Positions 15,703-39,293 of a DNA stretch of 39,293 nucleotides are shown piece by piece. The notes under the pieces are model-generated. The model did not search any database, had not been told where the DNA came from, and worked only from the letters and a program-made list of their open reading frames with translations. Every line of letters begins with the position of its first letter. Positions within the stretch are counted from its first letter, which is position 1. Origin of the DNA: a virus; IMG/VR virus record IMGVR_UViG_3300035703_000195, positions 1 to 39,293 of that record. The stretch is one strand, 5' to 3'. The position numbers were made by a program, and so were the translations under genes.

Positions 15703-15709
15703 TAGAAAA

Positions 15710-15982
15710 ATGAAACAAAAAAACATCAAAATGCGGCACAAGAAAAAAGACTTGAATTTCGCTTATGTAGAGTTCGATTCTCTCATTGAGGCACTGGACC
15801 ATATCAGCGAACAAGAGGTCATTCGCATCTACAATTATGGCGCAAGAGAACTTGCAAAGAGTCTAGCTCAAGGAAAAGATCCATTTGCACCAAAGAAAAA
15901 AACCGTCAAATTAAGCACAAAAACGCTTAACAAGGATCAAATCGAGGCGCTTGTTAGAGTAGGTTTGCTTTCAGAGGAGTGA
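15710..15982 (+). CDS. Lone rightward small basic protein in the early region
   Basis: This 90-aa basic protein is the only convincing plus-strand gene between 12915 and 27804. The ATG at 15710 has GAGGGC upstream; a longer reading back to 15497 would cover the divergent gene and is rejected. It contains IEALDHISEQEVIRIYNYGA, a basic linker (APKKKTVKLSTK) and a last helix (KDQIEALVRVGLLSEE). It is divergent from the recombination operon and its end overlaps RusA tail to tail by 29 bases. The place is that of a regulator, but no DNA-binding motif was recognised. Confidence 0.6.
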   Translation: MKQKNIKMRHKKKDLNFAYVEFDSLIEALDHISEQEVIRIYNYGARELAKSLAQGKDPFAPKKKTVKLSTKTLNKDQIEALVRVGLLSEE

Positions 15983-16355
15983 CCTGAACAGTGATCTGAC
16001 TTGCCTCTCCCCATCTTTTTGTGAGGTAGAGGTCAACGATCTGACTGTCGTCATCCCATACAATTTCATTCAAGGCATCGCATACCAGCTTGGCATAATT
16101 ATCTAGGTCAGAGCGGCTTGGATATGGCTGAGAAGGCTTCTTTGGCTTTTGCATGATAAATTCGATCGCCACGGCGACCGGAGCCGAGAATGGTTCCTTT
16201 TTCAGCTTTTTCATTTCCAGCTTTGCAAGCGTCTTTATATCGCTCTCTGCTTTTCTGGTCTTTGAGGGTGTAAAGGCATGGCCTGATCGGGCTATTCTCG
16301 GTCGGCCTTTTGCTACTGGCTCTACTTTAAAAACAAGGGTGATAAATTCCATCAT
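15954..16355 (-). CDS. rusA: RusA-type Holliday junction resolvase
   Basis: This 133-aa protein has the RusA pattern: VEPVAKGRPRIARSGHAFTP at the start, then RSDLDNYAKLVCDAL and VWDDDSQIVDLYLTKRWG, which give the conserved Asp residues and Lys of the active site. RusA dimers cut four-way junctions and would resolve recombination and replication intermediates before packaging. It starts at the first ATG of ATGATG, overlapping the upstream stop by ATGA. Its length is close to the family norm. Confidence 0.9.
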   Translation of the reverse strand: MMEFITLVFKVEPVAKGRPRIARSGHAFTPSKTRKAESDIKTLAKLEMKKLKKEPFSAPVAVAIEFIMQKPKKPSQPYPSRSDLDNYAKLVCDALNEIVWDDDSQIVDLYLTKRWGEASQITVQVTPLKANLL

Positions 16356-16534
16356 TGCATGGGATATTCTGTCATCGAGGTAGGAATTAGATCAAGATTA
16401 TCTTCTGACCCTTCATTCTCGATTAGAAAACCGTACATCACCACAAAAGAACGGCCTTTATTGACTGCTTTCGTCACAAAATTGTCGCCGTAATGATACC
16501 AGTCACCTTCGTAATATGCGTCAGGGACTCTCAC
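16352..16534 (-). CDS. Small hypothetical protein (60 aa)
   Basis: This 60-aa acidic protein, rich in Tyr and Asp/Glu (YYEGDWYHYGDNF), starts at a GTG that overlaps the stop of the metallophosphoesterase gene (GTGA). It ends in an ATGA overlap with RusA, so it is coupled on both sides. No family was recognised. Confidence 0.55.
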   Translation of the reverse strand: MRVPDAYYEGDWYHYGDNFVTKAVNKGRSFVVMYGFLIENEGSEDNLDLIPTSMTEYPMQ

Positions 16535-17232
16535 TCCATAGGATGAAATATAGGTATCCTCCCTCCTTCATGGATCGTTAAAGCTCCAAGGCAGGGGGCG
16601 TTCCTATTGTATTTGCCATAATCAAAGGCAAATGACTCCACATCTATTAAGCATCCAGCATTAGCGGCCCATATCTTGTAGCCGTTCAGGGTGCGGATAT
16701 AATCAATCGCTGCAAAGCTATGTAGGTGGCCTATCACGGTCGATATGCCAGCATCTAGGGCGGCATTTCTATGACCATCCTTGCCGCTGTAACCTTGCCC
16801 GTGGATCATTCTAAAAGGGCTTGGAAGGTCATTAAAGCGCCACTCTTGACGGTATTCCCACTCCTTCGGGATCTCATAAAGCTCTTTATAGTCCTTTATG
16901 GCAATCGAGGGGATCTCAGCATCAAAAGCCTTCCTGATCCATCTTAGGCCATGATTAGAGGTGCATAACTTCAGCTTTGGAAATGCTTTTGCCCACTCTT
17001 TGATCTTCTCGCGCACGATCATGATTTCTTCGGTAGGACTATGACGGTATTCGGCCCCCTTCTTATGAGCAGAGCCGTGGAAAATGTCGATCTCGTCTCC
17101 GGTGTGCAGGATGTTACTGTTCGGGATCTTAAATTCCTTCTTCAAATCGAGACAAAACTGCAAAGCCTTCTCATGTTCGTAAGGCTTTTGATTATCAGGA
17201 ATTACCAAAATCGGCTTCCTATGATCTAGCAT
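16531..17232 (-). CDS. Metallophosphoesterase
   Basis: This 233-aa protein has the calcineurin-like metal site spread over IPDNQ (the usual D-x-H appears as D-x-Q), TGDEIDIF (G-D-x-x-D), SNHGLR (N-H), HGQGYSGKDGH and GHLHS (G-H-x-H). Phage enzymes of this group act on phosphoesters of nucleic acids or small nucleotides; the substrate here is unknown. The ATG at 17232 is preferred over a TTG one codon before. There is no clear ribosome site, and TATACT lies 10 bases upstream, so the message may be leaderless. Confidence 0.8.
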   Translation of the reverse strand: MLDHRKPILVIPDNQKPYEHEKALQFCLDLKKEFKIPNSNILHTGDEIDIFHGSAHKKGAEYRHSPTEEIMIVREKIKEWAKAFPKLKLCTSNHGLRWIRKAFDAEIPSIAIKDYKELYEIPKEWEYRQEWRFNDLPSPFRMIHGQGYSGKDGHRNAALDAGISTVIGHLHSFAAIDYIRTLNGYKIWAANAGCLIDVESFAFDYGKYNRNAPCLGALTIHEGGRIPIFHPME

Positions 17233-17302
17233 CAATTAAAAGAGTATATTGCTTTTCTATAGAATCAAATTTTTGTTACTATTTATTTGGGGGGATCAGG
17301 GG

Positions 17303-17386
17303 ATGATCGAAATTTGCGTTATTTTAATGACAGGTTGTCAAATGATGTTCGTAGTTATCGGAGTAGTGTTAGCGGCAAAAAAATAG
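17303..17386 (+). CDS. Possible 27-aa membrane micropeptide
   Basis: This short reading frame encodes a hydrophobic peptide (MIEICVILMTGCQ then FVVIGVVLAAKK), one membrane span with a basic end. GGGGGGATCAGGGG precedes the ATG. It is isolated on the plus strand between two leftward genes, and its stop touches the hairpin at 17386. The call rests only on composition and the G-rich ribosome site. Confidence 0.35.
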   Translation: MIEICVILMTGCQMMFVVIGVVLAAKK

Positions 17387-17406
17387 GGCCAGCCAACGGC
17401 TGACCC
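17378..17406 (-). terminator. Leftward terminator after the lysine-rich gene pair
   Basis: The arms GGG-C-CAGCC (17386-17394) and GGCTG-A-CCC (17398-17406) pair over eight positions with one mismatch and a 3-base loop. Read leftward, the stem is followed by CTATTTTTTTGCC, a clear T-run. It ends the transcript that leaves the gene at 17446 and separates it from the metallophosphoesterase operon. Confidence 0.8.
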
Positions 17407-17445
17407 CATTTGTTACAAAGTTACCACAAAGACCCTACATTGTGG

Positions 17446-17685
17446 TCACTTTTTGCTTTTCTTACCGACGCACTTCCACTTTTTGCGGCTCAAGTTGTTC
17501 GGAGTATTTGGATCATTCTGCTTCTCTTTAGGGAGGCGCTTCTTGATTCCATAACTTCGAGCACAATAACTATCGCCGCGAGTAGTACCGGGCGCGATTG
17601 TGTATCCCTTGGCTCCGTATTTGACGACCTTGGTCCGGCCAGTTTTCTTATTTACGACCTTCTTAGAAAACTTTTTCTCAGCCAT
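17446..17685 (-). CDS. Small basic protein with conserved GDSYCARS motif
   Basis: This is a 79-aa Lys-rich protein (MAEKKFSKKVVNKKTGRTK). A central TIAPGTTRGDSYCARSYGI and a C-terminal NLSRKKWKCVGKKSKK resemble a recurring family of small phage proteins of unknown role. The two cysteines lie about 30 residues apart. It is the last gene before the terminator and follows the 94-aa basic gene by 3 bases. It may bind nucleic acid; no function is known to me. Confidence 0.65.
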   Translation of the reverse strand: MAEKKFSKKVVNKKTGRTKVVKYGAKGYTIAPGTTRGDSYCARSYGIKKRLPKEKQNDPNTPNNLSRKKWKCVGKKSKK

Positions 17686-17688
17686 GTG

Positions 17689-17973
17689 TCATTTCTTCTT
17701 TGCTGTTTTAGCCGATTGACGGAATGCCTTGGCTGTTGGAGCGCCTTTGCTTCCTACTTTACGCATCTTTTCTCCGCTTCCTGCTTTGATCCGTTCGCGC
17801 TTGGCATGAATGTTCGCATAAAGCCCCTTCTTTGCTTTTGCGGGCTTTTTCTTGGCCTTGCCAGCCTCACTGAAGGCAATCGCAATAGCTTGTTTCTGCG
17901 GCCTTCCAGAGCGAACTAGCTCCGAGATGTTTTGACTAATGACTTTCTTGCTCGATCCCTTTTTTAATGGCAT
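17689..17973 (-). CDS. DUF6496-like small basic protein
   Basis: This 94-aa protein combines [20 protein letters not shown] and [20 protein letters not shown] with [20 protein letters not shown], two short blocks common in phage proteins with Lys/Ala-rich ends. It is very basic and probably binds nucleic acid. Its start lies inside the preceding 47-aa gene in another frame (38-base overlap). The family label is from memory of the motif and should be treated as likely, not certain. Confidence 0.6.
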
Positions 17974-18079
17974 TTGTATCCACTCCTTCTAATTTAGCTA
18001 CCCGTTCATTCAGGTTATCAATAGCTTGGGTTATCTTTTGCAAAACCTCAATCAATTCCTTCAAATCTTCCTGTGTCAT
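17936..18079 (-). CDS. Small coiled-coil protein (47 aa)
   Basis: This 47-aa protein has a clear heptad pattern ([20 protein letters not shown], then RVAKLEGV). It has an excellent ribosome site (GAGGAGGACGA) formed by the last codons of the preceding gene, with which it overlaps by ATGA. Its end overlaps the 94-aa gene by 38 bases. It is probably an oligomer or an adaptor; no family was recognised. Confidence 0.6.
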
Positions 18080-18252
18080 TCGTCCTCCTCTCTATCATCG
18101 TCTCTATCGTCGTCTCGATCATCACGATAATCCATTTCTTCGTCCCAATATGATCTCGTTTCATAAGAATTACACTTTGGGCAAACAATCATGTGGCTGT
18201 TGTTAAATTCCATGTGCCCGCAATTCATACATAAATGTTCCATGCAAGCCAT
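18076..18252 (-). CDS. Zinc-ribbon protein with acidic repeat tail
   Basis: This 58-aa protein has a C-x2-C...C-x2-C zinc ribbon (C8, C11, C24, C27: HLCMNCGHM and IVCPKCNS) followed by a strongly acidic Asp/Arg repeat ([17 protein letters not shown]). The acidic repeat DNA also creates the ribosome site of the next gene. Start and end overlap the neighbours. Small zinc ribbons of this kind often bind polymerase or nucleic acid; the partner is unknown. Confidence 0.65.
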   Translation of the reverse strand: MACMEHLCMNCGHMEFNNSHMIVCPKCNSYETRSYWDEEMDYRDDRDDDRDDDREEDE

Positions 18253-18509
18253 TATTTGCTCACTCTCTCTTCGAACTCTAAAAGCAGGTTAGTTAGGTCT
18301 GCGTCGAGCCAATATTTCATGTTCTTTGCCATTCTAACGGGGTCCGAATTGCCTATGTTCTCAGAGGATTCCACCCTCAGAGCCTCATATCCCTCAATCC
18401 AAGCCCACCCCTTCATGATGCTATCGTTCAATTCGATCTTGAAAATAGCGGTCGCAAAGGGCTTTTCTCCGTTGTAATTGATCAATTCCTTGCTGTTCAT
18501 TACCATCAT
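18252..18509 (-). CDS. Hypothetical protein (85 aa)
   Basis: This 85-aa protein starts at the first ATG of ATGATG, overlapping the upstream stop by ATGA; an upstream in-frame ATG at 18581 lies inside the previous gene and is not preferred. It contains ATAIFKIELNDSIMKGWAWI and a C-terminal helix WLDADLTNLLLEFEERVSK. No family was recognised. It belongs to the long row of coupled small genes. Confidence 0.55.
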   Translation of the reverse strand: MMVMNSKELINYNGEKPFATAIFKIELNDSIMKGWAWIEGYEALRVESSENIGNSDPVRMAKNMKYWLDADLTNLLLEFEERVSK

Positions 18510-18679
18510 ACAATTCGTCCCTTTCTTGCCAAAACTTCGATTGCATACGCGATTGCAAGGTCTATATCGTCCGTCTCGCAATTTGCTATGTGATAGGTGT
18601 TGCCTTCAATGTAGGCCGTATCACCCGTCTGGTTCAATTCGTCTACTAGGGTCGTCAATTCAGTATGCTTTTCCTTCAT
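18506..18679 (-). CDS. Hypothetical protein (57 aa)
   Basis: This 57-aa protein has GGAGATAAC as ribosome site and ATGA overlaps on both sides. It shows a beta-hairpin-like middle (TAYIEGNTYHIANCETDD) and a helix (IDLAIAYAIEVLARKGRIV). No family was recognised. It was picked by its ribosome site and coupling. Confidence 0.55.
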   Translation of the reverse strand: MKEKHTELTTLVDELNQTGDTAYIEGNTYHIANCETDDIDLAIAYAIEVLARKGRIV

Positions 18680-18858
18680 GTTATCTCCATTTCGGTTTTT
18701 ACTGCATTTAACTGCTGTTCAATACGCTTGATGTACAGCTTGACGGTCGCCAAAAACTCCGGGTTTTCGCTTGTCAGCCACGCACCAAAACACTCATTTG
18801 CATTTTCTGTTAACATCAACAGGTTTACAAGTTCAAAATCTGCTTTTTTTGCGTCCAT
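18676..18858 (-). CDS. Hypothetical helical protein (60 aa)
   Basis: This 60-aa protein starts at ATG 18858 with GGAG seven bases upstream; a TTG two codons earlier is not needed. It is mostly helical (FELVNLLMLTENANECFGAW, then a helix ending IEQQLNAVKTEMEIT). No family was recognised. It overlaps the next gene by ATGA. Confidence 0.55.
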   Translation of the reverse strand: MDAKKADFELVNLLMLTENANECFGAWLTSENPEFLATVKLYIKRIEQQLNAVKTEMEIT

Positions 18859-18860
18859 GT

Positions 18861-19214
18861 TCAATCTCCTGAGTCATAGGTTGAATGAAAATACAATTTG
18901 CCTTCCTTGCTCTTATAGGCCGAATACTCCACCCCGGTCCATCCGGGATAATCCTCGTTTTGCTGCAAGTATTCCATGACCTCATGGGGAGGCGCGTCTG
19001 TCTCAATCTCGCGCTTCCATGTGGTATAGCAGCGCCCCTCGGCCTCTACGATCCACCCTGTATCTGATTTAGCCCCCTTCACTGGCAGGTTTTTAATGTG
19101 CAATCTCATAACTTCACTCATTCCTTCCGCGTATTCACGCTCTTGTTTTCGTTTCAAAAACCTTTCAAAAACCTTAAAACCTTGTTTCCAATAAAAAAGC
19201 ATCTCTTCTTCCAC
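18861..19214 (-). CDS. Hypothetical protein (117 aa)
   Basis: This protein likely starts at GTG 19214, since AAAGGAG lies five bases upstream; ATG 19202 is an alternative. It has a basic helical first part (FKVFERFLKRKQEREYAEGM) and a beta-type second part (GWIVEAEGRCYTTWKREIET). The start overlaps the preceding gene by 41 bases. No family was recognised. Confidence 0.5.
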   Translation of the reverse strand: MEEEMLFYWKQGFKVFERFLKRKQEREYAEGMSEVMRLHIKNLPVKGAKSDTGWIVEAEGRCYTTWKREIETDAPPHEVMEYLQQNEDYPGWTGVEYSAYKSKEGKLYFHSTYDSGD

Positions 19215-19386
19215 TTTCGCTCCTTTCAAGGCGCTTCATTATCTCGGTCCTGTATGCCTCCGAGCGCTCTTTATAGTGCTCCTCATACTCTTTGAGACCT
19301 TCTTTCCTGTGCATGGTTCTAAGGGCGATAGCGGCCTGATAAAGCGCCATCAATGCACTGTTTTCTACCTGCTTCAAGTCGCTCAT
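19174..19386 (-). CDS. Hypothetical helical protein (70 aa)
   Basis: This 70-aa protein starts at ATG 19386 with AAGGAG upstream and an ATGA overlap with the preceding stop. The upstream extension to 19458 lies inside the previous gene. It is helical and charged (ALMALYQAAIALRTMHRKEG, then KEYEEHYKERSEAYRTEIMK). No family was recognised. Confidence 0.55.
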   Translation of the reverse strand: MSDLKQVENSALMALYQAAIALRTMHRKEGLKEYEEHYKERSEAYRTEIMKRLERSESGRRDAFLLETRF

Positions 19387-19967
19387 TTGCTTTTCTCCTT
19401 TTCCAATAGTTCGCACAAATACTTCGCGTATTTTTCGCGGGTCGCGTAGGTCCTGCAATCCGCAAAAAACTTCAAATAGTATTTCCTATTCCATTGGTCA
19501 TGATACCGAAGGGCCTCAGTTAACTCGGCCACTTTTGCGCGATACCATTCAGCATGAGCAACGGCCTTTTTTGTTGCGCGGGCCTCCCGGATCTTGCCGC
19601 GGGCGGTCTCTTTTAAAACCAGCATCACCCCCAGTCCGTGGTTCGATCCGCCGCATTCACATTCACAATTCGGCCCCCTAGCATGGGCACAAATCTGATT
19701 GCACTTGCAATCGGTAACGGTCTCGGTTTTGGTATAAAACCTCCCCCGCACTTTTCCCATGTACTCGAAGGCCGTAGCGTTCCCGCACTGGCATTCCGTC
19801 CCTTGCGGGGCAGCGTGGCCCGGCGTGTTTTTGTTGGTCTCCAGAGTCGCGCAAAACGGAGTCAGGCAATCAATGCACCTAAAATAATGGCGCGTAACTG
19901 CGGGCAACTGCGGCGATGCTATGACTTTGTTTTCGATCATGCGGGCAAGTCGTTTCATTGTTTTCAT
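19383..19967 (-). CDS. Cysteine-rich zinc-binding protein
   Basis: This 194-aa protein has about a dozen cysteines in its first 120 residues: FRCIDCLTPFC, ECQCGN, DCKCNQICAHARGPNCECEC, then GGSNHG. The C-x-C-N...C-x2-A-x-GP-x-C-x-C-x-C-GG-x-NHG block is one I recognise from small phage zinc proteins of unknown function. The C-terminal third is a charged helix. It could bind nucleic acid. It starts 45 bases after the clamp gene and couples into the 70-aa gene. Confidence 0.65.
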   Translation of the reverse strand: MKTMKRLARMIENKVIASPQLPAVTRHYFRCIDCLTPFCATLETNKNTPGHAAPQGTECQCGNATAFEYMGKVRGRFYTKTETVTDCKCNQICAHARGPNCECECGGSNHGLGVMLVLKETARGKIREARATKKAVAHAEWYRAKVAELTEALRYHDQWNRKYYLKFFADCRTYATREKYAKYLCELLEKEKSK

Positions 19968-20012
19968 GTTTATCTTTCCTTTTGAAAAGGCCCTTCCTTG
20001 GGGCGTGGTTAG

Positions 20013-20681
20013 TTATGCGGTTGCCTGTTCTTCGGTATAACTTGCACCCTTTTCGATCTTTTTAAGCTCCTTATAAACCTCGTTAGGCCATGCTTCCATT
20101 ATGTTAGTCCGCATTGGCATAATCACGCCAATATCGCGGGTTTTTTCATCTCCGATTGCGCGAACGATAACAGGTGCAGATTGCTCAGAAACTCGAAAGA
20201 TAACACCCTTATGAGAGGGGTGATCTTGTAATGCTTCCGCAATTTGGGCGATATAATCGGCATTTAAAGCGAACTCAATAAATCCAGTAGGGTTTGGAAT
20301 TACTGCATCAATGTCGGGATAATTCGGAACACCCTGAGAGGTTTCGAGTTTAAGAATCGCGCCCCCGAACTCGAAGCGAACTTGACCCGCAATGTCTTCT
20401 CCCCTGATTTCAATTTCATCAGGTAGTTTTTTAATCTCGCGCAAAAGGTTTGAAAGGTGTTTTTTGCCTTCAATATGCGGCAAAAATAAATCGCGGGTGA
20501 CCATGGTGCCATCTTGAATGTACCTCACTGCCATTTTATGCCCGTCAGTTGCGACCATACGGGTGACCCCGTCCACGGTTTTTTCAATTTTCAAACATTG
20601 AATCTGATAGCGCATGACATCAGTCGATGCACAATCGAGCATTTTCGAGGCTATTTTAAGGGTTTTTTTGGTAAGGATCAT
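20013..20681 (-). CDS. Sliding clamp-like (DnaN-type) processivity factor
   Basis: This 222-aa protein has two short blocks of bacterial beta clamps: RMVATDGHKMAVR (residues 41-53), like the ATDGHRLA motif, and IGVIMPMRT with MPMR at 188-191, like the closing MPMRL of DnaN. Bacterial clamps are about 370 aa with three domains, while this is the size of the two-domain trimeric clamp of phage T4. It probably forms a ring on DNA. As no phage DNA polymerase is visible, it may hold the host replicase. An extra 31 residues follow the MPMR. The ribosome site is AGAAAACACA, weak. Confidence 0.65.
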   Translation of the reverse strand: MILTKKTLKIASKMLDCASTDVMRYQIQCLKIEKTVDGVTRMVATDGHKMAVRYIQDGTMVTRDLFLPHIEGKKHLSNLLREIKKLPDEIEIRGEDIAGQVRFEFGGAILKLETSQGVPNYPDIDAVIPNPTGFIEFALNADYIAQIAEALQDHPSHKGVIFRVSEQSAPVIVRAIGDEKTRDIGVIMPMRTNIMEAWPNEVYKELKKIEKGASYTEEQATA

Positions 20682-20804
20682 TGTGTTTTCTCCAATTCTG
20701 AATCGGCAGTTATCCGGCGCGATAGTGCGGCGAATTGTAGGGGCCTCATCAGTACGCGCATAACGCGTAGACCGCGCCCCTAGCAGGGGCGGCGGTTTCG
20801 GCCT

Positions 20805-20876
20805 TTATTTCGTGCCTTCCCAAAACATTAGGAAGGTGAGGGGCGGGATCAGCAGCATCAAGTAATCAATGTTCAT
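20805..20876 (-). CDS. Possible 23-aa membrane micropeptide
   Basis: This is a 23-aa peptide with one hydrophobic stretch (YLMLLIPPLTFLMFW) and a GTK end. No ribosome site is obvious; the near-palindrome at 20878 lies directly before the ATG. It resembles other membrane micropeptides in this region, which is the main reason to list it. Confidence 0.35.
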   Translation of the reverse strand: MNIDYLMLLIPPLTFLMFWEGTK

Positions 20877-20877
20877 C

Positions 20878-20897
20878 GTGTGATCATGTTAACAGCA
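20878..20897. promoter_or_regulatory. Near-palindromic operator-like motif, copy 1
   Basis: This 20-bp site, GTGTGATCATGTTAACAGCA, matches the sites at 22823-22842 (17 of 20) and 25574-25593 (17 of 20). The core is a near-palindrome around CATG. It lies in the gap between the 134-aa gene and the clamp region. A repressor or activator site is the simplest idea. Confidence 0.5.
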
Positions 20898-20910
20898 TTC
20901 AATGGACGCG

Positions 20911-21315
20911 TCAATACTCTTGATCCACGCGCCCCCGGCGGGCCTCTTTCCAGCGCCGAAAAACCCACGCTATCCACTCCGATGGCGCGATGGTCTCCCA
21001 TACTTCGCCATCGCCAGCCCCGTACCATGCGCGGGTTGCCTTCCTCATGCTCCAATAATTCCACGCAAAAACGGGATGCCATGAGGTCACGCGGCCGCCC
21101 GAATCGCAGTCTTGAAGCCCGACGGCGAGCCAGTAAGGGAAGCACTTCCGGGCGCGAGAGGCGAGCTTATCGATCCAATACGGGCGAATGGGACCGTGCC
21201 ACGGGATCGGACCGCCGGAAAGACCGTTCTTGTATTCAAAAAACCACCGGCGGCCGTCTGGCAAGGCGCGCGGGAATTGGTAGATTTTAAGGTTTCCGAG
21301 TTTGTATCGTTTCAT
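20911..21315 (-). CDS. Hypothetical GC-rich gene, 134 aa
   Basis: This 134-aa basic, Trp-rich protein (MKRYKLGNLKIYQFPRAL start; HPVFAWNYWSMRKATRAWYG in the middle) has GGGGGTG as ribosome site. The reading back to 21369 is rejected because it overlaps the previous gene and has no ribosome site. Base use is much richer in G and C than in neighbouring early genes, like ArdC. No family was recognised. Confidence 0.55.
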   Translation of the reverse strand: MKRYKLGNLKIYQFPRALPDGRRWFFEYKNGLSGGPIPWHGPIRPYWIDKLASRARKCFPYWLAVGLQDCDSGGRVTSWHPVFAWNYWSMRKATRAWYGAGDGEVWETIAPSEWIAWVFRRWKEARRGRVDQEY

Positions 21316-21602
21316 GCTGCACCCCCTTCGCGTCCGCAATGCGGGCATGGTTGCGCGACAAGCTCCCAAGCGCGGGCCTCTACTTGGAGTCTTTCGATCT
21401 CCGAGATCGAAAACACTCCCGCGAGGGTCATTGCCTCGCCGACGATCTGCGAAGCGACCTGTTTCAGTGTTACGGGGCGACGGCCTCCACGCTCCACGGG
21501 CGCGCTGAATGCGGCCACCATCTCCGGCCCCAAGTAGGGCAGCGGTTCAAAGTCGGGGCGGCGGGCAATGTCATAAGCGGCGAAAAACTGGTTACGGGTC
21601 AT
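21312..21602 (-). CDS. Hypothetical GC-rich gene with C-terminal CPHCG
   Basis: This 96-aa protein begins MTRNQFFAAYDIARRPDFEP and ends with a cysteine knuckle (QPCPHCGREGGAA). It has GGAG upstream and an ATGA overlap with the next gene. A helix (ISEIERLQVEARAWELVAQ) comes before the knuckle. Codon use is GC-rich as in ArdC. No family was recognised; the CPHCG suggests half a zinc site or a dimeric one. Confidence 0.55.
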   Translation of the reverse strand: MTRNQFFAAYDIARRPDFEPLPYLGPEMVAAFSAPVERGGRRPVTLKQVASQIVGEAMTLAGVFSISEIERLQVEARAWELVAQPCPHCGREGGAA

Positions 21603-21618
21603 GATAGGGGTCTCCTTT

Positions 21619-21804
21619 TTAGATTAGGTTCATGCCGAGTGAATCGGCGGCCTGTTCAATGGTCATTTTTCCGGCTTCAAGGTCTTCAATGACATCGGTT
21701 AGGTGTCCGTGCCATTCCGCTGCCCCCTCGTCTTCCTCGCTATCGAATACGATTTGGGCGCGCTGTTGTTTGAGGTATTGAATCACTTTTAAAAGATCGT
21801 GCAT
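21619..21804 (-). CDS. Small acidic protein next to ArdC
   Basis: This 61-aa acidic protein starts at ATG 21804 with AGAGG upstream; the longer reading to 21966 lies inside ArdC. It has a helix (MHDLLKVIQYLKQQRAQIVF), an acidic linker (DSEEDEGAAE) and a last helix (LEAGKMTIEQAADSLGMNLI). The acidic surface could suit an antirestriction or DNA-mimic partner, but this is a guess from charge and position. Confidence 0.55.
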   Translation of the reverse strand: MHDLLKVIQYLKQQRAQIVFDSEEDEGAAEWHGHLTDVIEDLEAGKMTIEQAADSLGMNLI

Positions 21805-21821
21805 TTTTTTGGTTTCCTCTC

Positions 21822-21840
21822 GGTTGGTTGGTTGGTTGGG
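21822..21840 (+). repeat. (GGTT)4GGG tetranucleotide repeat
   Basis: Four and a half units of GGTT lie in the gap between ArdC and the 61-aa gene. Five GG pairs in a row can form a two-layer G-quadruplex in the plus strand. Length change here would alter the spacing ahead of the 61-aa gene's ribosome site region. Next to it a 5-bp hairpin (AGGCC/GGCCT) is seen at 21841-21856. Confidence 0.6.
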
Positions 21841-21868
21841 AGGCCTTCCATGGCCTCTAGGTTTCGAT

Positions 21869-22771
21869 TTAAGCGGTTTTTGTCTCCGGGGCATAGGTTG
21901 CGCCCGTGATGTGGTCTGCGGCCTTCTGAGCGGCTCCTGCGGCCTGTAACGCGAGCCGGGAGTCACCCTTTAAAACCTTGATCCATGAGGCAAGATAGGC
22001 CGCGCTGTTGTCCATGAGGTCGCTCCCGTCAATCCCGGCGGTGGCGAGCAGGAAAGCGCTCCCCATTTCAGCCACTAGCTCCTCTTTCGAGTACTCATGG
22101 GAGCCGAACGAGGCGAGTTTCGTCAAGCTGTCCCGGTTCAAACGCGAACGGTGGCCCGTAGAGTGGGCAAGCTCATGGAACAGGGTTCCGTAGTAATGGG
22201 CGGGCGTTTGGAAGGTCTCGCGCGGCGGCATAGCCACAAGGTCCATGGATGGCGCGTAGCACGCCCGCGTCCCCTTGTGGACGATTTGCGGGCGGCCCGC
22301 GAAGCCTTGGACGATCCGCTCCGCGCTTTCGATCGGGTTGAATGCGGGGCGCGGAGTGACCGGGGTCGCGTCGATGCCGAGGGCTTCCGGGGTGATCCCG
22401 TCAATCTGATCGAGGTTAAAGACGGTGTAATGGCGAAGGAAGGCGAAGCTCTCAGGGTCTCCCCCTTCCTCCCCGTCACGGGTGACGCGGTTCCAGTAGG
22501 TGACGGGCGTCCCGGTCGATCCGGCCTTGACGCGGCCCCCGCGCTCCCGGACTTGGTTGAAGGTCAGCCAGTACGGAGTCGAGAATCCCGCGCACCCGGT
22601 CAGGATCGCGTTAATTCCCCGGTAGACAGTCCCGGTCGCAGGGTTGCGCTGGACCATCGCGGCTCCGGTTGCGGGGTCCCATGGGCGTTTCCACGGGTTG
22701 ACGCCCGCTTCCATCCGGGCGATCAGGGTTTCGGTAACGCGCTCGTAAACGGTCTTTTTTGATTCACTCAT
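21869..22771 (-). CDS. ardC: ArdC-type antirestriction protein
   Basis: This 300-aa protein has both ArdC parts. The N-terminal single-strand DNA-binding domain (DUF1738 type) reads VYERVTETLIARMEAGVNPW, then RGINAILTG and PYWLTFNQV. A C-terminal zincin protease-like domain has FHELAHSTGHRSRL, giving H-E-x-x-H, and the downstream EELVAEMGSAFL as third ligand region. Plasmid ArdC protects incoming single-stranded DNA against type I and II restriction. The start at 22771 has GGAG at ten bases; an extension to 22807 has none. The gene is clearly richer in G and C than the structural genes, which suggests separate acquisition. Confidence 0.9.
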   Translation of the reverse strand: MSESKKTVYERVTETLIARMEAGVNPWKRPWDPATGAAMVQRNPATGTVYRGINAILTGCAGFSTPYWLTFNQVRERGGRVKAGSTGTPVTYWNRVTRDGEEGGDPESFAFLRHYTVFNLDQIDGITPEALGIDATPVTPRPAFNPIESAERIVQGFAGRPQIVHKGTRACYAPSMDLVAMPPRETFQTPAHYYGTLFHELAHSTGHRSRLNRDSLTKLASFGSHEYSKEELVAEMGSAFLLATAGIDGSDLMDNSAAYLASWIKVLKGDSRLALQAAGAAQKAADHITGATYAPETKTA

Positions 22772-22822
22772 TAGTAGGGGTCTCCTGTAGGGTTGCGGCC
22801 CGATCATTCGAGCCGTACATCA

Positions 22823-22842
22823 GTGTTAACATGATAACAGCA
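22823..22842. promoter_or_regulatory. Near-palindromic operator-like motif, copy 2
   Basis: The site GTGTTAACATGATAACAGCA lies 51 bases upstream of the ArdC start. It contains GTTAACATGATAAC, close to a perfect palindrome. It matches copy 1 at 17 of 20 positions and copy 3 at 16 of 20. Its place suggests control of ArdC. Confidence 0.55.
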
Positions 22843-22845
22843 TGA

Positions 22846-23530
22846 ATGCAATAGGGGCCGAGTAGTTTTTTTTCGACGCACCCCCGCCACCAGCAATTCC
22901 CACTGGTTACGGTCCGGATTAAAAAAGTATTTTAACAATTTGAAAACGGGTGAGATGATCTCCAGAGTCAATCGGGAGTCATACCACGCCCACGCACTAC
23001 ACGCGTTAGGATGCCCACAGAGCGCGCCAAGCGCGGCATGAGTCTAGGTACTGGCCGGGTCCGTAGACGCGTTCTAGCGAGAAATCGCGGTTTGGCTTAA
23101 CAATCTCGCGTCAAATCCTGCGCTCCACGCGCTCCAAGAGTCCAGGCGTCCAGGAGTCGATTGCGCTCATGGTGTCCGGTGTGTCCTGATCCACGCGGAA
23201 AGGGGTAGTGTAACCTCATCCCATGCCCGACCAGTCAAGTCAAGCGGGTGTCAGGTGTTCGCCCCCGGAGTCAGTCAGCGGCTCCCGGTCTTGTGCGTGT
23301 CAGACTCCCCGGCTCCTCACCCCCACTAGCCTTCCCTCTCCGGCTCCCGATCTCGCGTCACCCGGTCTTGTGTCATGCATCGCAGCCCGGCCACCCCTAG
23401 GCCCCACCCCACCCCCCTCCCGCGCCCGCCCGCCCCCACCCCCGCGCACCCCACGGCGCGCACCCCCTCCCCACGCCCACCCATTGCGCTCCGACGCGTT
23501 CGCCGTCGCGCGTCTATTTTCCAAAACTCT
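22846..23530. other. GC-rich non-coding leader upstream of ArdC
   Basis: About 0.7 kb holds no gene I can support. It is GC-rich and dense in short repeats: CGGCTCC three times and CCGGTCTTGTG twice between 23279 and 23371, and GTCCAGGCGTCCAGGAGTC near 23142-23160. Proline-rich or Gly/Arg-rich frames here are by-products of base composition. A leftward promoter lies at its right edge, so it would be transcribed as a long G-rich leader ahead of ArdC. Confidence 0.6.
23386..23482 (-). other. Cluster of 15 G-runs on the minus strand (G-quadruplex potential)
   Basis: On the plus strand, C-runs of three or more begin at 23386, 23394, 23402, 23407, 23412, 23419, 23425, 23429, 23433, 23439, 23449, 23463, 23469, 23476 and 23480. 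In 23401-23460 only six of 60 bases are A or T. The minus strand, which is the RNA-like strand for the leftward promoter at 23537, can form several G-quadruplexes, and the plus strand i-motifs. Confidence 0.75.
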
Positions 23531-23536
23531 TATGAC

Positions 23537-23565
23537 ATTTTAACTAACTTGACTCTTTTTATCAA
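23537..23565 (-). promoter_or_regulatory. Leftward sigma-70-like promoter
   Basis: On the minus strand TTGATA (23560-23565) and TAAAAT (23537-23542) are exactly 17 bases apart; each matches five of six consensus positions. The surrounding 23517-23585 is AT-rich. Transcription would start near 23530 and enter the GC-rich leader, then ArdC. Confidence 0.6.
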
Positions 23566-23586
23566 GTATTGGGGTAAATAAAAAGG

Positions 23587-23853
23587 TTAGTAAGGTCTAG
23601 GAAGGCTGTTGGATTGGATGATGGCTTTAGGCTCAGTAGGATGCTCGTAGACGGTTCCTATGGTCTCGATGACATACTTGCCCTTATTTGCGGGTATATC
23701 GCGTGTAATGGTCTTGCAGGGTGTTTTGATGACTAACGATTGATACCGGGTTTCGTTGAAACCAGACTCGGATTTGGAATCTTGGTATCGAACGATCCAA
23801 GGTGTGTCGGGAGTGTACAGGTCGATGTAGATTTGCAGGATCTTATTTTCCAT
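23587..23853 (-). CDS. Hypothetical protein (88 aa)
   Basis: This 88-aa protein has a beta-rich pattern (KILQIYIDLYTPDTPWIVRY, later GKYVIETIGTVYEHPTEPKA). The start overlaps the preceding gene by 11 bases. No family was recognised. It is the last gene before the GC-rich leader and has the normal base use of the early region. Confidence 0.55.
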   Translation of the reverse strand: MENKILQIYIDLYTPDTPWIVRYQDSKSESGFNETRYQSLVIKTPCKTITRDIPANKGKYVIETIGTVYEHPTEPKAIIQSNSLPRPY

Positions 23854-24067
23854 TTTGAAGTTCGGCTTTCAAATGGTCGGCCTGTTTCTTGACCCGTTGT
23901 AAGATGTGTTTCTTTTGATTCAATAACTCTGTGATGGCTTCTGAACACACTGACTTGAGCCTTGGATCTAGCCTCGCCAGATTCTCGTAATGCTCGATAA
24001 CGCTGGTGTAATGATCAAACAGCGTAAGTAAGTATCGTGCATTGCAAACGAACAGTGCATCCTTCAC
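23843..24067 (-). CDS. Hypothetical helical protein (74 aa)
   Basis: This 74-aa protein is helical, with a basic coiled-coil second half (ITELLNQKKHILQRVKKQAD, then HLKAELQNGK). No family was recognised. It lies between the 51-aa membrane protein and the 88-aa protein in the leftward row. Confidence 0.5.
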   Translation of the reverse strand: MKDALFVCNARYLLTLFDHYTSVIEHYENLARLDPRLKSVCSEAITELLNQKKHILQRVKKQADHLKAELQNGK

Positions 24068-24099
24068 AGATTCAGTTTATATGGCTTTTGGGGATAGGT

Positions 24100-24255
24100 C
24101 TATTCTGACTTGCGGTCATCCCATTTATTCGACCAAGGCCACCATACGCGCTTGATGATGGGGTTCCAGTTTGGTGTGGGCATATTCCACAGCTTCCAAC
24201 TGCGGTTCATGATGATAAGGGTGGTGATGATAATTGCGATTGCGATGAGTGTCAT
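24100..24255 (-). CDS. Small membrane protein downstream of the structured RNA
   Basis: This 51-aa protein has an N-terminal membrane segment (MTLIAIAIIITTLIM) and a Trp- and Lys-rich cytoplasmic tail (WNPIIKRVWWPWSNKWDDRK). The ribosome site GGAGCAAAT is strong. Its leader begins directly after the structured RNA and its terminator-like end at 24298, so readthrough or an RNA switch could set its level. No family was recognised. Confidence 0.65.
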   Translation of the reverse strand: MTLIAIAIIITTLIIMNRSWKLWNMPTPNWNPIIKRVWWPWSNKWDDRKSE

Positions 24256-24297
24256 ATTTGCTCCTATTAAGCCGTTAATAAGTTCTTCTTAACATCT

Positions 24298-24500
24298 AAA
24301 AACCCCCCAAAGAAGAGCTTGGGATACCGAAATTGTTCCGTTACCGGATAACCTTCGGGTGCTTGGTCTTGTGAGTGGAATCACAATCCGGGGAAGTAGT
24401 TGCACTTCCTTGGGGGGTGCTTGTGGTTGTGCCACAAAAGTTTGGCCGAATTAACCCCTGCTCGGCTCTACACAGGACAGACGCGCCCAAAGGAGGGGCG
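24298..24500 (-). ncRNA. Structured RNA with terminator-like 3' end, family not recognised
   Basis: The leftward strand can fold into at least six helices. Arm positions on the plus strand are 24484-24488/24496-24500, 24445-24449/24462-24466, 24421-24426/24432-24437, 24392-24397/24404-24409, 24369-24374/24381-24386, and 24327-24331/24354-24358 with an inner 4-bp stem at 24340-24343/24349-24352. A 9-bp helix (24302-24310/24410-24418) closes the last three hairpins into a multi-branch unit. Leftward, its 3' arm GGGGGG is followed by TTTTT. The same arm can instead pair locally (24306-24310/24319-24323) to make a short terminator. Such competition is typical of riboswitches or attenuators, but a free small RNA is equally possible. 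No known RNA family was recognised. Confidence 0.6.
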
Positions 24501-24505
24501 TTGGT

Positions 24506-24679
24506 TTATGTTGTTCCTTTCAACGCTTCACGGGCTTTTTTCTCGCAATAGGCAAGCGTTGCCTCGTTGGAATAGATGCAGTGAACAATGTCATCGAGCG
24601 CTTCCCGATAACGAGCGTTTTCGGCCTTCAGGTTTGCAATAACCATCAATGCAGCATCCAGTTCGTTTTCAATGCCCAT
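24506..24679 (-). CDS. Small coiled-coil protein (57 aa)
   Basis: This 57-aa protein contains LDAALMVIANLKAENARYRE, a short coiled coil, and HCIYSNEATLAYCEKKAREA, with two cysteines. It lies between the secreted repeat protein and the structured RNA; its stop is six bases before the first RNA hairpin. No family was recognised with certainty. Confidence 0.55.
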   Translation of the reverse strand: MGIENELDAALMVIANLKAENARYREALDDIVHCIYSNEATLAYCEKKAREALKGTT

Positions 24680-24691
24680 CTATACAGCCTC

Positions 24692-24943
24692 TCAGTAACA
24701 ATCCGTATAGGTGTTTTGGCCGATGGTACGGGTAGTGCAGTTCACCTGATTGCCGCGATTGTCATACCCATCAGAATAGGTGGTGTTACCGATCTGACGA
24801 GTGGTGATGTTGCTGTTGTACCCATTGTTGCCATAGGTATCGGTATAGATTGTGTTACCGACCTTACGGCTAGTGGTGTTGTAGTAGTCATAGGCTTGTG
24901 CCGATGATGCGAACAGTGCGATTACTGCGATTAGTGCTTTCAT
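24692..24943 (-). CDS. Secreted repeat protein
   Basis: This 83-aa protein has a clear signal peptide (MKALIAVIALFASSAQA, cut before YDYYN). Three tandem units of about 21 residues follow, each with TT-x-R-x-[VI]G-[NQ]-[TN]-[TI]Y[TS]D, the last closing with a cysteine pair (NCTTRTIGQNTYTDCY). It is therefore periplasmic or outer-membrane associated. AAGGAG is the ribosome site. Such a product in an early phage region may alter the cell surface, for instance against superinfection; this is inference. Confidence 0.75.
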   Translation of the reverse strand: MKALIAVIALFASSAQAYDYYNTTSRKVGNTIYTDTYGNNGYNSNITTRQIGNTTYSDGYDNRGNQVNCTTRTIGQNTYTDCY

Positions 24944-24964
24944 GTTTTCTCCTTATTTGATTTT

Positions 24965-25025
24965 CTCGCCGCCAGACTCAAGGTGTGTGTGTTTCCAGCG
25001 GCGAGTTGTTGGCGTTATTGCCAAC
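24965..25025. promoter_or_regulatory. Two strong hairpins upstream of the secreted protein
   Basis: A perfect 8-bp stem (24965-24972/24998-25005) encloses a loop with a GT-repeat. A 6-bp stem (25008-25013/25020-25025) lies next to it. They lie in the leader of the secreted protein gene and after the stop of the 35-aa membrane gene. No T-run follows in either direction, so they are more likely RNA-processing or protein-binding structures than terminators. Confidence 0.5.
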
Positions 25026-25037
25026 GAAAGTTAAAGT

Positions 25038-25145
25038 CTAATACTTCCAACAGAACTTGATGAACTTAACAATCAAGTAACAAATCAGAGCAAAGACCCA
25101 AAGTCCGATTACCGAACAAGTTATGAAAAAAATGATCAGATCCAT
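25038..25145 (-). CDS. Membrane micropeptide (35 aa)
   Basis: This 35-aa peptide is almost wholly hydrophobic (MDLIIFFITCSVIGLWVFAL then ICYLIVKF), with a basic end (KFCWKY). AGAG precedes the ATG. It is one of three small membrane frames in a row, which supports its being real. Confidence 0.5.
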   Translation of the reverse strand: MDLIIFFITCSVIGLWVFALICYLIVKFIKFCWKY

Positions 25146-25160
25146 ATTAACTCTTTATTC

Positions 25161-25286
25161 CTAGCTCCATGCCCAAAAGATAAATTTGAATATGGCTACG
25201 AATACAGTGATGATCAGAAAAATCGCCACTGCTGAAAATACGAACTCTAAAAAATCATCCATTTCGTTTTGGTGTTTATTTTCCAT
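25161..25286 (-). CDS. Membrane micropeptide (41 aa)
   Basis: This 41-aa peptide has a polar start (MENKHQNEMDD) and one long membrane span (LEFVFSAVAIFLIITVFVAI) ending in an aromatic patch (FKFIFWAWS). AGGAAAAGAAG lies upstream and the start overlaps the 23-aa frame. No family was recognised. Confidence 0.5.
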   Translation of the reverse strand: MENKHQNEMDDFLEFVFSAVAIFLIITVFVAIFKFIFWAWS

Positions 25287-25347
25287 CTTCTTTTCCTATT
25301 AGGTATCCGATTATTGCGGCCACAATCAGCCAGTATTCATTAACCAT
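25276..25347 (-). CDS. Membrane micropeptide (23 aa)
   Basis: This 23-aa peptide (core YWLIVAAIIGYLIGKEDGK) has one short span. Its start overlaps the end of the 67-aa gene and its end overlaps the 41-aa gene, so translation would be coupled. The ribosome site is weak. It is listed because of the coupling and the repeated membrane theme. Confidence 0.4.
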   Translation of the reverse strand: MVNEYWLIVAAIIGYLIGKEDGK

Positions 25348-25543
25348 TACGAAGTTCCGACTTCTTCTCTTCAAGCCATCCGGCAAATCCGCTTGCATAC
25401 ATCTCATGCAACTGATCTGCCTCTTTGCTCATCAGAAACCGAATTGCAATCTCGTATCCGCGAATTACAGCCTCATCGAGCTTGCCTTCAAATACATCCG
25501 AACGCATCCGTACATTGAAATCAGGGTCAATCGTGTGTGTCAT
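25340..25543 (-). CDS. Hypothetical protein (67 aa)
   Basis: This 67-aa protein starts at ATG 25543 with AAGGAG at good spacing; an upstream extension to 25564 would skip that site. It is helical and acidic (FEGKLDEAVIRGYEIAIRFL, ending FAGWLEEKKSELRNG). A promoter-like pair at 25563-25591 precedes it. No family was recognised. Confidence 0.6.
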   Translation of the reverse strand: MTHTIDPDFNVRMRSDVFEGKLDEAVIRGYEIAIRFLMSKEADQLHEMYASGFAGWLEEKKSELRNG

Positions 25544-25562
25544 TGTGTTTCTCCTTACAAGC

Positions 25563-25591
25563 ATCTTATTACGGTGTTATCATGTTATCAA
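25563..25591 (-). promoter_or_regulatory. Leftward promoter overlapping the third near-palindrome
   Basis: On the minus strand TTGATA (25586-25591) and TAAGAT (25563-25568) are 17 bases apart. The -35 and the start of the spacer lie inside the repeated 20-bp near-palindrome (25574-25593), so a bound protein would block this promoter. Confidence 0.5.
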
Positions 25592-25593
25592 CA
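25574..25593. promoter_or_regulatory. Near-palindromic operator-like motif, copy 3
   Basis: The site GTGTTATCATGTTATCAACA agrees with copy 1 at 17 and copy 2 at 16 of 20 positions. It is centred on CATG and overlaps the -35 of a leftward promoter and the stop codon of the zinc protein gene at 25588. Confidence 0.55.
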
Positions 25594-25938
25594 TTTATTT
25601 TCACAAATGAAAAAATAATTGTACCCGTCATTGGAAAGTTTGATTGCAGCCCTCTTTCCGCAGTGCAAACAGAACTCTTGGTGGAAGCTCTCGGCCTTCT
25701 TCATTGTCTCTTGAGAGATGAACATGGCCTCCTCCATCACTGCATTCTCATACGCCTCAAGGCCCATCGGCTCCCGATAGAACTTCTTGCGATAAGACTG
25801 CACCAATGCCTTTATTTTATCGCTCTCAAGATCACTTGTTAGCAATTCGCTTACCCCATTTCTCCGCGTATGTTTTAGTAGACCCGGTAGCATTATTGCT
25901 GCTAGAGCGTTCAATTTCTGTATATCGACCTTTTCCAT
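25588..25938 (-). CDS. Zinc-binding protein overlapping the helicase gene
   Basis: This 116-aa protein starts at ATG 25938 with GAGGAATGAAG before it, inside the helicase gene (107-base overlap in another frame). The C-terminus has two cysteine pairs (FCLHCGKRAAI and FICENKC). The middle has a helical YRKKFYREPMGLEAYENAVM. Such an overlap is long for phages, but the ribosome site and the zinc pairs support a real gene. No family was recognised; it may assist the helicase. Confidence 0.6.
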   Translation of the reverse strand: MEKVDIQKLNALAAIMLPGLLKHTRRNGVSELLTSDLESDKIKALVQSYRKKFYREPMGLEAYENAVMEEAMFISQETMKKAESFHQEFCLHCGKRAAIKLSNDGYNYFFICENKC

Positions 25939-26764
25939 CTTCATTCCTCATGTAAAATACTTGGTTTACGAACTTCCCGCGCTTCCGTAGCTTCTTGAAT
26001 ACGAACTCGCGGTCATACGGCGTTAAGCCGTAATTATCCTGTTCCTCGCGCGTCATCCTGTTCATCAGCAAAATATTCGTCGCCTCCTGAACAGCCGTAG
26101 ATGACCCCTTGATGTCGAACTCCGACACAATCTTGCCATCCACCGTCTTACGAGGGTGCATCACAAGGAAAATGTGCATCGGCGTTACCTTCACCGCCTG
26201 AACGAACTTGTGTACCGTCTCGTCCATCTCAAGCGTTTGGTCCCCGCCCCTCGCTGGCTTCAACATGAAGTTCAGGTTATCGACGATCATGATGTTCGCC
26301 TCATGCGTGTCCTGAACGAACTTCATCAGGTCAATGAACTCGTCAATGTCCACACGCGACGAGTATGTCGTCACCACAAGGTTCTTGATGATTTTCTCTT
26401 GGTAGGTCTTGAGGGTCCAGTGGAGCTTCTTGCGGCTCTCATCGTCGGCGGGTTCTCCTGAGATGAAGTCATGCCCCCCAAGCACCGACAGGACCATCTT
26501 CGTAAAGTCCACTTCGCCGATCTCAATGGGGGCGACGAACACCTTCTGGTCCTGCTCGATCAGCTTCGCGGTCAGGTTTGCAAGCCAAAGGCTTTTACCC
26601 GCTCCAGTTGGCCCACAGAAGATCGAAAACTCGCGGGGCCTTAGTCCACCCGTCATCCGGTTGAAATTCGTCCAGCCGTCAAGCGGAACGCCAGTGGGGG
26701 GTGTCAAAATCTCGACCGCAGCCTTGTCCAGCACCTCAAGGGTTTTTGCTATTGGGAGGGTCAT
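25832..26764 (-). CDS. DnaB-type replicative helicase (RecA-fold core)
   Basis: This 310-aa protein has the DnaB C-terminal domain: FNRMTGGLRPREFSIFCGPT, then GAGKSLWLANL (Walker A), IMIVDNLNFMLKP (Walker B) and HIFLVMHPRKTVDGK, like the DnaB H4 region. It lacks the N-terminal primase-binding domain of full DnaB (about 460 aa). It is coupled by ATGA to the initiator gene just before it, as helicase or loader genes are in lambdoid phages. It would unwind the phage origin and use host primase. Confidence 0.85.
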   Translation of the reverse strand: MTLPIAKTLEVLDKAAVEILTPPTGVPLDGWTNFNRMTGGLRPREFSIFCGPTGAGKSLWLANLTAKLIEQDQKVFVAPIEIGEVDFTKMVLSVLGGHDFISGEPADDESRKKLHWTLKTYQEKIIKNLVVTTYSSRVDIDEFIDLMKFVQDTHEANIMIVDNLNFMLKPARGGDQTLEMDETVHKFVQAVKVTPMHIFLVMHPRKTVDGKIVSEFDIKGSSTAVQEATNILLMNRMTREEQDNYGLTPYDREFVFKKLRKRGKFVNQVFYMRNEDGKGRYTEIERSSSNNATGSTKTYAEKWGKRIANK

Positions 26765-27462
26765 GAGTATTTCCCTTCCAGAATCTTGATCGCATTGTCA
26801 CCACGAACGATGAAGTCAAGATCACAGCGCCACGGCTTTGAACGGTTTCCGCTCACCGCGCCTTGCCCTGTCAGGAATTGCGACTTGTTGACCGCTTGAA
26901 TCACATCCTGCCAAAACTCAGCCTCGGGGTACTCGCGCAGCGCCTTAGCGATTGCGCGCTTCCGACCGTCCGTGAGCTTGATTACTCTGGCTAGTGAGGG
27001 GTTGGCAAGACTATTCCATAAGTTGACTAGATCGGTGGTCTTTAGGCCTCCCTCAACAGCCTCAGACACCTCGTCGCCTTTCGACGAGAATATGTCCTGT
27101 TCTGTCCTGTCCTGTCCTGTAACGGCCAAATCACGATCCGCTGACGATCCCGCCACGATCCCCATACGATCCCGACCTTCAAGTATTTGCTTTTCGATCA
27201 TTTTTTCAATCGTCTGCAAAATGTCTTTCGGCTTATGTCGGGTGATGTAGGCGAAGTGGTCAAGGTCAATAGTGAATAAACCTTGCTCGTTTTGTTGGCT
27301 CGCCTCACACAGCAAATAAATGAATATCAGACGATTCTGGTCGGAAAAATCAAAAAAATTTCGGTTCGTCGCAAAGTCGTTTGCGAACGAAAACCAGACC
27401 GGGTTTTTGTACTCCTTCGCCCTCTTGTTGTAGTCTTCCCAATTCTTGAATTTTAGGCGCAC
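26761..27462 (-). CDS. Replication initiator (lambda O-like)
   Basis: This 233-aa protein starts at GTG 27462, with AAGGGGGG four bases upstream. The N-terminal part has a winged-helix pattern (NRLIFIYLLCEASQQNEQGL, then FAYITRHKPKDILQTIEKMI). A linker at about 95-125 is followed by a C-terminal domain with GRKRAIAKALREYPEAEFWQ and WRCDLDFIVRGDNAIKILEG, as in phage replisome organisers that recruit helicase. The linker DNA contains the iteron-like repeats of the proposed origin. It is the first gene of the leftward early operon. Confidence 0.8.
   Translation of the reverse strand: MRLKFKNWEDYNKRAKEYKNPVWFSFANDFATNRNFFDFSDQNRLIFIYLLCEASQQNEQGLFTIDLDHFAYITRHKPKDILQTIEKMIEKQILEGRDRMGIVAGSSADRDLAVTGQDRTEQDIFSSKGDEVSEAVEGGLKTTDLVNLWNSLANPSLARVIKLTDGRKRAIAKALREYPEAEFWQDVIQAVNKSQFLTGQGAVSGNRSKPWRCDLDFIVRGDNAIKILEGKYS
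27093..27172. other. Proposed replication origin inside the initiator gene
   Basis: ACGATCC occurs at 27133, 27144, 27155 and 27166, an exact 11-bp period, one turn of DNA. The period is not a multiple of three, so protein sequence does not explain it. Next to it, 27093-27120 holds five-base units TGTCC, TGTTC, TGTCC, TGTCC, TGTCC, TGT. An AT-rich stretch (27181-27230) follows on the other side. Four iterons within an O-like gene is the arrangement of the lambda origin. Confidence 0.75.
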
Positions 27463-27555
27463 AAGGCCCCCCTTTTTGTTGTTAATACATTGATGTTTTC
27501 AGGGAGATTTGCTAACCTTTTTGGCAAGCAGATGACTCCCAGACCCATTTGCGAT

Positions 27556-27609
27556 CCAGACACCCGGCCAAGGGTGATTCTGGAACATAGGCCGGATACA
27601 TCCCGGCCT
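27556..27609. promoter_or_regulatory. Pair of strong hairpins in the divergent early/late gap
   Basis: A stem of CCAGA-CACCC (27556-27565) with GGGTG (27572-27576) and TCTGG (27579-27583), with a two-base bulge, is followed five bases later by a perfect 7-bp stem (27589-27595/27603-27609) and TTTT on the plus strand. They lie ahead of the initiator gene in leftward RNA. They may be a rightward terminator, or paired RNA hairpins in the early leader. Confidence 0.5.
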
Positions 27610-27724
27610 TTTCCATTTTTGAAGCACCAATTCTCAAAAGTCAAAGCCAAAATCCAAAAAACAGTTTTTTTGCTTTAGAGGCTTGCTATTGTAAAATTAA
27701 GATGGCGGCTTATCATGGATGAGA

Positions 27725-38262: not shown

Positions 38263-38269
38263 GGTTTAA

Positions 38270-39247: not shown

Positions 39248-39293
39248 ATGCCATATACAGGGCAGATAGCCGAAATTAAGTTTGGTGATAACG
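39248..39293 (+). CDS. Start of tail stabilisation protein (cut by window end)
   Basis: These 46 bases are identical to 1567-1612, the beginning of the 578-aa stabilisation gene. The window ends inside the gene. Its presence shows that the end of the contig runs back into the start of the same gene map. Confidence 0.9.
   Translation, partial: MPYTGQIAEIKFGDN

Follow-up and report, generated by a model that had tools for sequence, protein, structure and literature searches.

The window analysed here is a tailed-phage record of 39,293 bases that encodes a terminase large subunit, a portal protein, a major head protein and a DnaB-like helicase, together with a DnaD/O-like initiator, a Sak4-like annealing protein and a RusA-like resolvase; NCBIfam returned 0 matches for eight proteins. 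Positions 1-995 repeat 37982-38976 at 88% identity and positions 1324-1612 repeat 39005-39293 at 91%. A related record of 26,301 bases is colinear with the window from 27636 to its end and on through its start to 15751, with 85-96% identity in the matching stretches. The end repeats and this colinear relative suggest that the genome is probably circular or circularly permuted, about 38 kb long and unclosed, and that the two ends of the record, which overlap at 88-91% identity, probably derive from different strains. The related record lacks 15751-27636, the part of the window that holds the element described below.

That element lies within a GC-rich island made up of an ArdC-like antirestriction gene, three small genes and a gap without a credible gene (Table 1). 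The gap separates ArdC from an 88-aa gene upstream and is the longest in the window, as ranked against a hand-picked gene set. For its open reading frames (40-106 aa) the best PHROG match had E 0.79, none falling below 0.1, and a tRNA search found none. The initial annotation had described 0.75 kb of non-coding, very GC-rich DNA here; the gap in fact extends over 815 bases, and its GC content is 59% overall and reaches 75% only at 23300-23499. Further upstream, positions 24692-24943 (minus strand) encode a small protein of secreted appearance that contains near-repeats of the form TRxxGNTxYxDxY and for which there was no PHROG match below E 0.01.

Table 1. Features of the ArdC locus and of the candidate replication origin, in window coordinates
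Feature	Position	Strand	Remarks
GC island	20880-23520		60% GC (window 46%); holds the gap, the ArdC gene and three small genes
ArdC-like antirestriction gene	21869-22771	-	ArdcN and MPTase-PolyVal domains; probable start at 22771 behind AGGAG, read from the sequence
Gap without credible gene	22772-23586		815 bases
Operator-like palindrome, 16 bp	22824-22839		upstream of ArdC
Near copies of the palindrome	20879-20894 and 25575-25590		probable operators of a phage regulator
Extended -10, TGTTATCAT	22831-22839	-	overlaps the operator-like site; nearer candidate ArdC promoter, read by eye
G-run tract	23386-23482	-	15 G3+ runs on the strand resembling a leftward RNA (15 C3+ runs on the plus strand)
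Canonical quadruplex motifs	23463-23482, 23429-23452, 23407-23427	-	four G3+ runs with loops of 1-7; the only three in the window on either strand
Rho-loading-like C-over-G stretch	23402-23479	+	C minus G of 46 in 78 bases; next best 21, sd 7.1
Hairpin followed by U-rich stretch	23493-23514	+	directly past the C-rich stretch; also in the predicted plus-strand fold
Candidate sigma-70-type promoter	23565-23537	-	TTGATA (23565-23560), 17 bases, TAAAAT (23542-23537); 10 of 12 consensus matches, to a consensus that may not be the host's
Four GGATCGT iterons	27172, 27161, 27150, 27139	-	exact 11-base spacing; inside the DnaD/O-like initiator gene (26761-27462)

The most conspicuous feature of the gap is a dense tract of G-runs on the strand that a leftward transcript would resemble. 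The fifteen runs of at least three G that had first been noticed there are borne out exactly in number and position, and 69 of the 97 bases are C on the plus strand. Elsewhere in the window (outside 23200-23490), the densest cluster of C or G runs has 6 per 100 bases. Dinucleotide shuffles never reached 15 runs per 100 bases, whether the whole window (0/100), the GC island at 20880-23530 (0/500), the stretch 22846-23565 (0/500) or 23300-23500 (0/1000) was shuffled. Mononucleotide shuffles of 23300-23500 did so in 2 of 1000 cases, and shuffles of the tract's own 97 bases in 16 of 2000. These counts put the anomaly down mainly to local C content, to which clustering into runs contributes somewhat.

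Among 251 other loci (2.65 Mb), the maximum was 12 runs per 100 bases, in a coding tandem repeat. Duplicate sequences and the window itself (L081) were excluded from this survey and from the energy survey of 332 loci described below; the loci were chosen by homology and partly overlap, the same records having been cut differently, and they are no random sample. Two clusters were rejected as homologous elements. One, with 12 C-runs per 100 bases in a locus whose MCP is a 68% relative (L248), encodes a tandem hexapeptide repeat, and the other, of 8 runs (L249), lies within a 172-aa reading frame. The L248 protein (15708-16283, minus strand) has about 14 hexapeptide units of the type AG(W/E/G)GI(E/K). 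The tract is real and extreme, and is known from one assembled genome only.

Both strands were scored for quadruplex formation, and the tract has the strongest G4Hunter value of the window (-2.8) as well as its only canonical motifs. The energy difference between RNA:DNA and DNA:DNA pairing, computed with the nearest-neighbour tables in Biopython, is -49.6 kcal/100 nt for minus-strand RNA at 23383-23482, compared with a window mean of -1.4 (sd 6.9) and a best value of -41.8 among the 332 other loci (3.28 Mb). A QmRLFS-type rule for R-loops, re-coded for the analysis (an initiation zone of at least 50% G, then, within 50 nt, 100 nt with 40% G or more), matched once in the window, at the tract, with the minus strand as the RNA-like one. 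The same rule gave 200 matches, spread over 90 of 332 other loci, and a match is therefore nothing special in itself. The R-loop or G-quadruplex setting originally proposed is nevertheless the window's best such site if the DNA is transcribed leftward, and its energy lies beyond that of every other locus; on such transcription, one or the other structure would likely form. Conventional folding of the 759-nt leftward RNA gave a z score of -1.34, with 2 of 20 shuffles equally good, and the G-rich 291 nt showed no gain over shuffles (z +0.68); quadruplexes are outside what the folding tool reports in the mode used.

Leftward transcription could begin at a candidate promoter upstream of the tract. 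Its two hexamers and their spacing are exactly as first described, but it is no more than a candidate, because promoter-like matches in 6 kb are near chance level (11 against 5.2 +/- 3.0 expected from shuffles). With a start near 23530, the distance to the runs would be about 48-144 nt, slightly shifted from the 55-150 bases given in the initial annotation but close to them. The scan for terminators listed no leftward terminator-like site between 23587 and the ArdC start.

ArdC itself appears to be served by a nearer control region. The 16-bp palindrome upstream of the gene, searched on both strands with at most three mismatches, gave six matches in the window (two of them the query site itself) against 0.33 expected, and none of 100 shuffles reached six. 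Each palindrome lies just ahead of a leftward gene, judged by eye: a 23-codon frame (start near 20876), ArdC (22771) and a gene whose start is at either 25564 or 25543. Those at 20.88 and 22.83 kb overlap an extended -10, and for the one at 20.88 kb the scan gives a -35 as well, at a spacing of 17 bases; the extended -10 ahead of ArdC is absent from the promoter list because the scan requires both hexamers. These motifs make it probable that ArdC is served by a repressible promoter of its own, some 50-70 bases before the ATG. The tract would then lie upstream of this nearer candidate and not necessarily in a transcribed leader, which weakens the earlier description of it as the leader of ArdC.

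Homologues of ArdC were confirmed in number, with 182 viral and 313 bacterial candidates (up to 51% identity among the best 80 of each) and 57 phage records with a match, the best at 49% identity; the upstream DNA of this last match was covered within the pooled 332-locus survey. A comparable tract within 1 kb upstream was found at none of the best 80 of the 182 viral loci and at none of 79 bacterial loci (the best 80 of 313, minus L314 with its 19 upstream bases). The maximum in that kilobase within these sets was 8 G3+ runs per 100 bases for the viral loci, of which one (L067) offered 795 instead of 1000 bases, and 7 for the bacterial loci. The tract is therefore not part of the usual surroundings of ArdC.

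No match to 20700-25700 was found across 50,697 phage records, and the island matched one of 72,556 plasmid records, over 166 bases inside ArdC at 68%. Scans of viral contigs with the helicase, clamp-like, 96-aa and 88-aa proteins yielded no relative, while those with TerL and MCP found close relatives, 0 of which held the tract region. When 30 related records, hand-chosen from 160 rows of the TerL and MCP scans, were compared with the 6.8-kb early region, 1 of them matched, over 62 bases in the helicase gene; the helicase was matched in 2 of the 30, at 36-37%. Thus no record holding the region of the tract was found among the phage records, viral contigs and related records searched, and a literature search on G-quadruplexes in bacteriophage and prophage genomes gave no description of this element among the matches listed. 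For the early region as a whole (15751-27636) no close relative was found in the viral contigs, although proteins of the structural genes have counterparts there that are 90-99% identical. The early module possibly turns over fast.

Base composition suggests that the ArdC cassette was probably gained laterally. The GC content of the island, the GC3 of ArdC (0.76; the hand-picked genes listed from beyond the island range from 0.30 to 0.68) and the dinucleotide distance of the gene cassette alone (0.126) all fit such a gain, and the distance of the island as a whole (0.109) is above that of all 125 other 2.64-kb windows (maximum 0.091). The GC step at about 23.5 kb is sharp. That sharpness, the strain-mixed ends of the record and the lack of another record with the region would also suit an assembly join or a sequencing artefact, the former having been named at the outset as what might overturn the finding. 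However, the palindrome occurs inside the island, at its edge and outside it, so that the island is most likely the phage's own and a false join unlikely, and no 15-mer of the tract recurs elsewhere in the window on either strand, so there is no within-window repeat to misjoin on. The tract is also no homopolymer. A join finds no support in these observations, and we consider either explanation very unlikely.

What, then, might the tract do? It may do nothing. Gap and tract could be a compositional relic, intergenic DNA of an acquired cassette that drifted into C-rich low complexity, and we hold this almost as likely as the transcription barrier that we prefer below. The high GC3 of ArdC and the outlying signature of the island agree with it, as does the fact that the anomaly is mainly local C content, with neither a homologue, an RNA family nor a structure better than shuffles. 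Yet by dinucleotide distance the gap itself is not foreign, its value being 0.089 where windows of its size average 0.094, and the longest gap of a compact phage, carrying a one-strand tract right past a promoter-like site, would be unlike the usual outcome of drift. The opposite direction of transcription must also be weighed, since G-runs on the minus strand and C-richness on the plus strand are the same asymmetry and sequence alone cannot separate the two readings. Rho utilisation (rut) sites are long, C-rich and G-poor in the RNA, and a rightward transcript of the tract would be just that, followed by a hairpin. Such an RNA would load Rho and, with the hairpin and its U-rich stretch, end antisense transcription in the leftward early operon. 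The plus strand has the window's highest C-over-G stretch with the hairpin and its U-rich tail directly after it, but any G-run tract inevitably has a C-rich complement, terminator-like sites in the region are no commoner than in shuffles (6 against 7.4), and, in a further departure from rut sites, the tract has no known rightward transcript to terminate and no nearby rightward gene that needs termination. We therefore regard a Rho-dependent role as unlikely. That the gap gives rise to a long structured non-coding RNA is slightly less probable still: the gap offers 815 gene-free bases with a promoter-like site at their head, but Rfam had no match for the gap even at E up to 5, the folding scores of the full and the G-rich RNA were as given above, and no relatives were found in which to look for covariation.

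The initial annotation had also suggested that the tract could prime replication. A promoter-like site followed by the window's strongest RNA:DNA-favouring stretch is what such an R-loop origin would call for, and at the T4 origins oriF and oriG a phage promoter likewise feeds an RNA:DNA hybrid that persists (PMC3016281); here the hybrid is predicted. These origins, however, carry an A+T-rich unwinding element, whereas the hybrid zone of the window is about 75% GC (23300-23499) and an A+T-rich stretch comes only near 22820-22960, about 600 nt on.

A scan for DnaA boxes found one site in the window, at 32.8 kb and thus not near the tract, which is fewer than chance. Instead, four evenly spaced iterons lie inside the initiator gene, followed by about five ACAGG-like units (array 27093-27174). 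The origin of phage lambda has iterons inside its O-like initiator gene, and the layout here is the same. The array at 27.1 kb is the probable replication origin and a better candidate than the tract, for which priming is not supported and seems highly improbable. In the G016 initiator gene, a search for repeats turned up just two, each in two copies, and around the helicase of L170 a search for tandem repeats gave nothing, so that these searches give no sign of a shared iteron origin.

We favour the reading that the tract is a transcription barrier heading a GC-rich and probably acquired ArdC cassette, and put its probability at roughly one in three. Leftward transcripts, whether started by the candidate promoter (23.55 kb) or reading through from the early genes (23.6-27.5 kb), would become very G-rich on crossing the tract. 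The nascent RNA and the non-template strand could then form an R-loop or a hybrid G-quadruplex, which would slow or end transcription ahead of ArdC, so that less read-through would reach the gene and most ArdC expression would come from the operator-covered promoter next to it, at about 22.83 kb. A G-run cluster just past a promoter-like site, the strongest RNA:DNA preference in the window, the nearer ArdC operator and promoter and the lack of a listed leftward terminator in the gap speak for this model. Against it stand that the tract is known from a single genome, the mere candidate status of the promoter, the unremarkable fold of the G-rich part, the commonness of matches to the R-loop rule and the absence of a U-tract after the G-tract.

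Termination by hybrid quadruplexes is already known as a kind, and the phage tract would be a single further case. At mitochondrial CSB 2, hybrid quadruplexes arising from non-template G-tracts terminate transcription (PMC5027508), and they also form when T7 RNA polymerase transcribes (GGGGA)4 (PMC4066803). Like CSB 2, the phage locus has a non-template G-tract downstream of a promoter, here a candidate, and its nascent RNA could pair with the non-template DNA, stopping the polymerase. It differs in consisting of fifteen spread runs and not one split tract, in presumably being read by a bacterial polymerase, and in being known from sequence alone. The T/U tract that follows the G-tract of CSB 2 is missing as well; by eye, there is no adjacent UU in the 60 nt past 23386. 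A bacterial parallel is gonococcal pilE, for which transcription-dependent quadruplex formation with a cis-acting small RNA has been proposed (PMC3547852). In both settings the RNA would occupy the strand rich in C, leaving the G-rich strand free. However, transcription at pilE starts within the quadruplex sequence, whereas the promoter-like site of the phage is about 50 nt upstream, and the outcome at pilE is gene conversion, whereas no recombination partner was seen in the window.

A more elaborate version of the barrier would turn it into a switch: single-stranded DNA laid bare by an R-loop or hybrid quadruplex close to the promoter would be recognised by the N-domain of ArdC, whose gene lies just downstream, so that ArdC would sense and control its own read-through. 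The one support for this switch is that ArdC-N domains are held to bind single-stranded DNA (PMC5512222), and we consider it a long shot.

At present the tract is one extreme sequence without comparative support. If transcription is in fact halted or slowed there, the tract would be a phage equivalent of mitochondrial CSB 2, a terminator built from G-runs rather than from a hairpin. Placed ahead of ArdC, it would insulate an antirestriction gene from the transcription around it, and would offer a cheap and portable way of uncoupling an acquired gene from its new operon.
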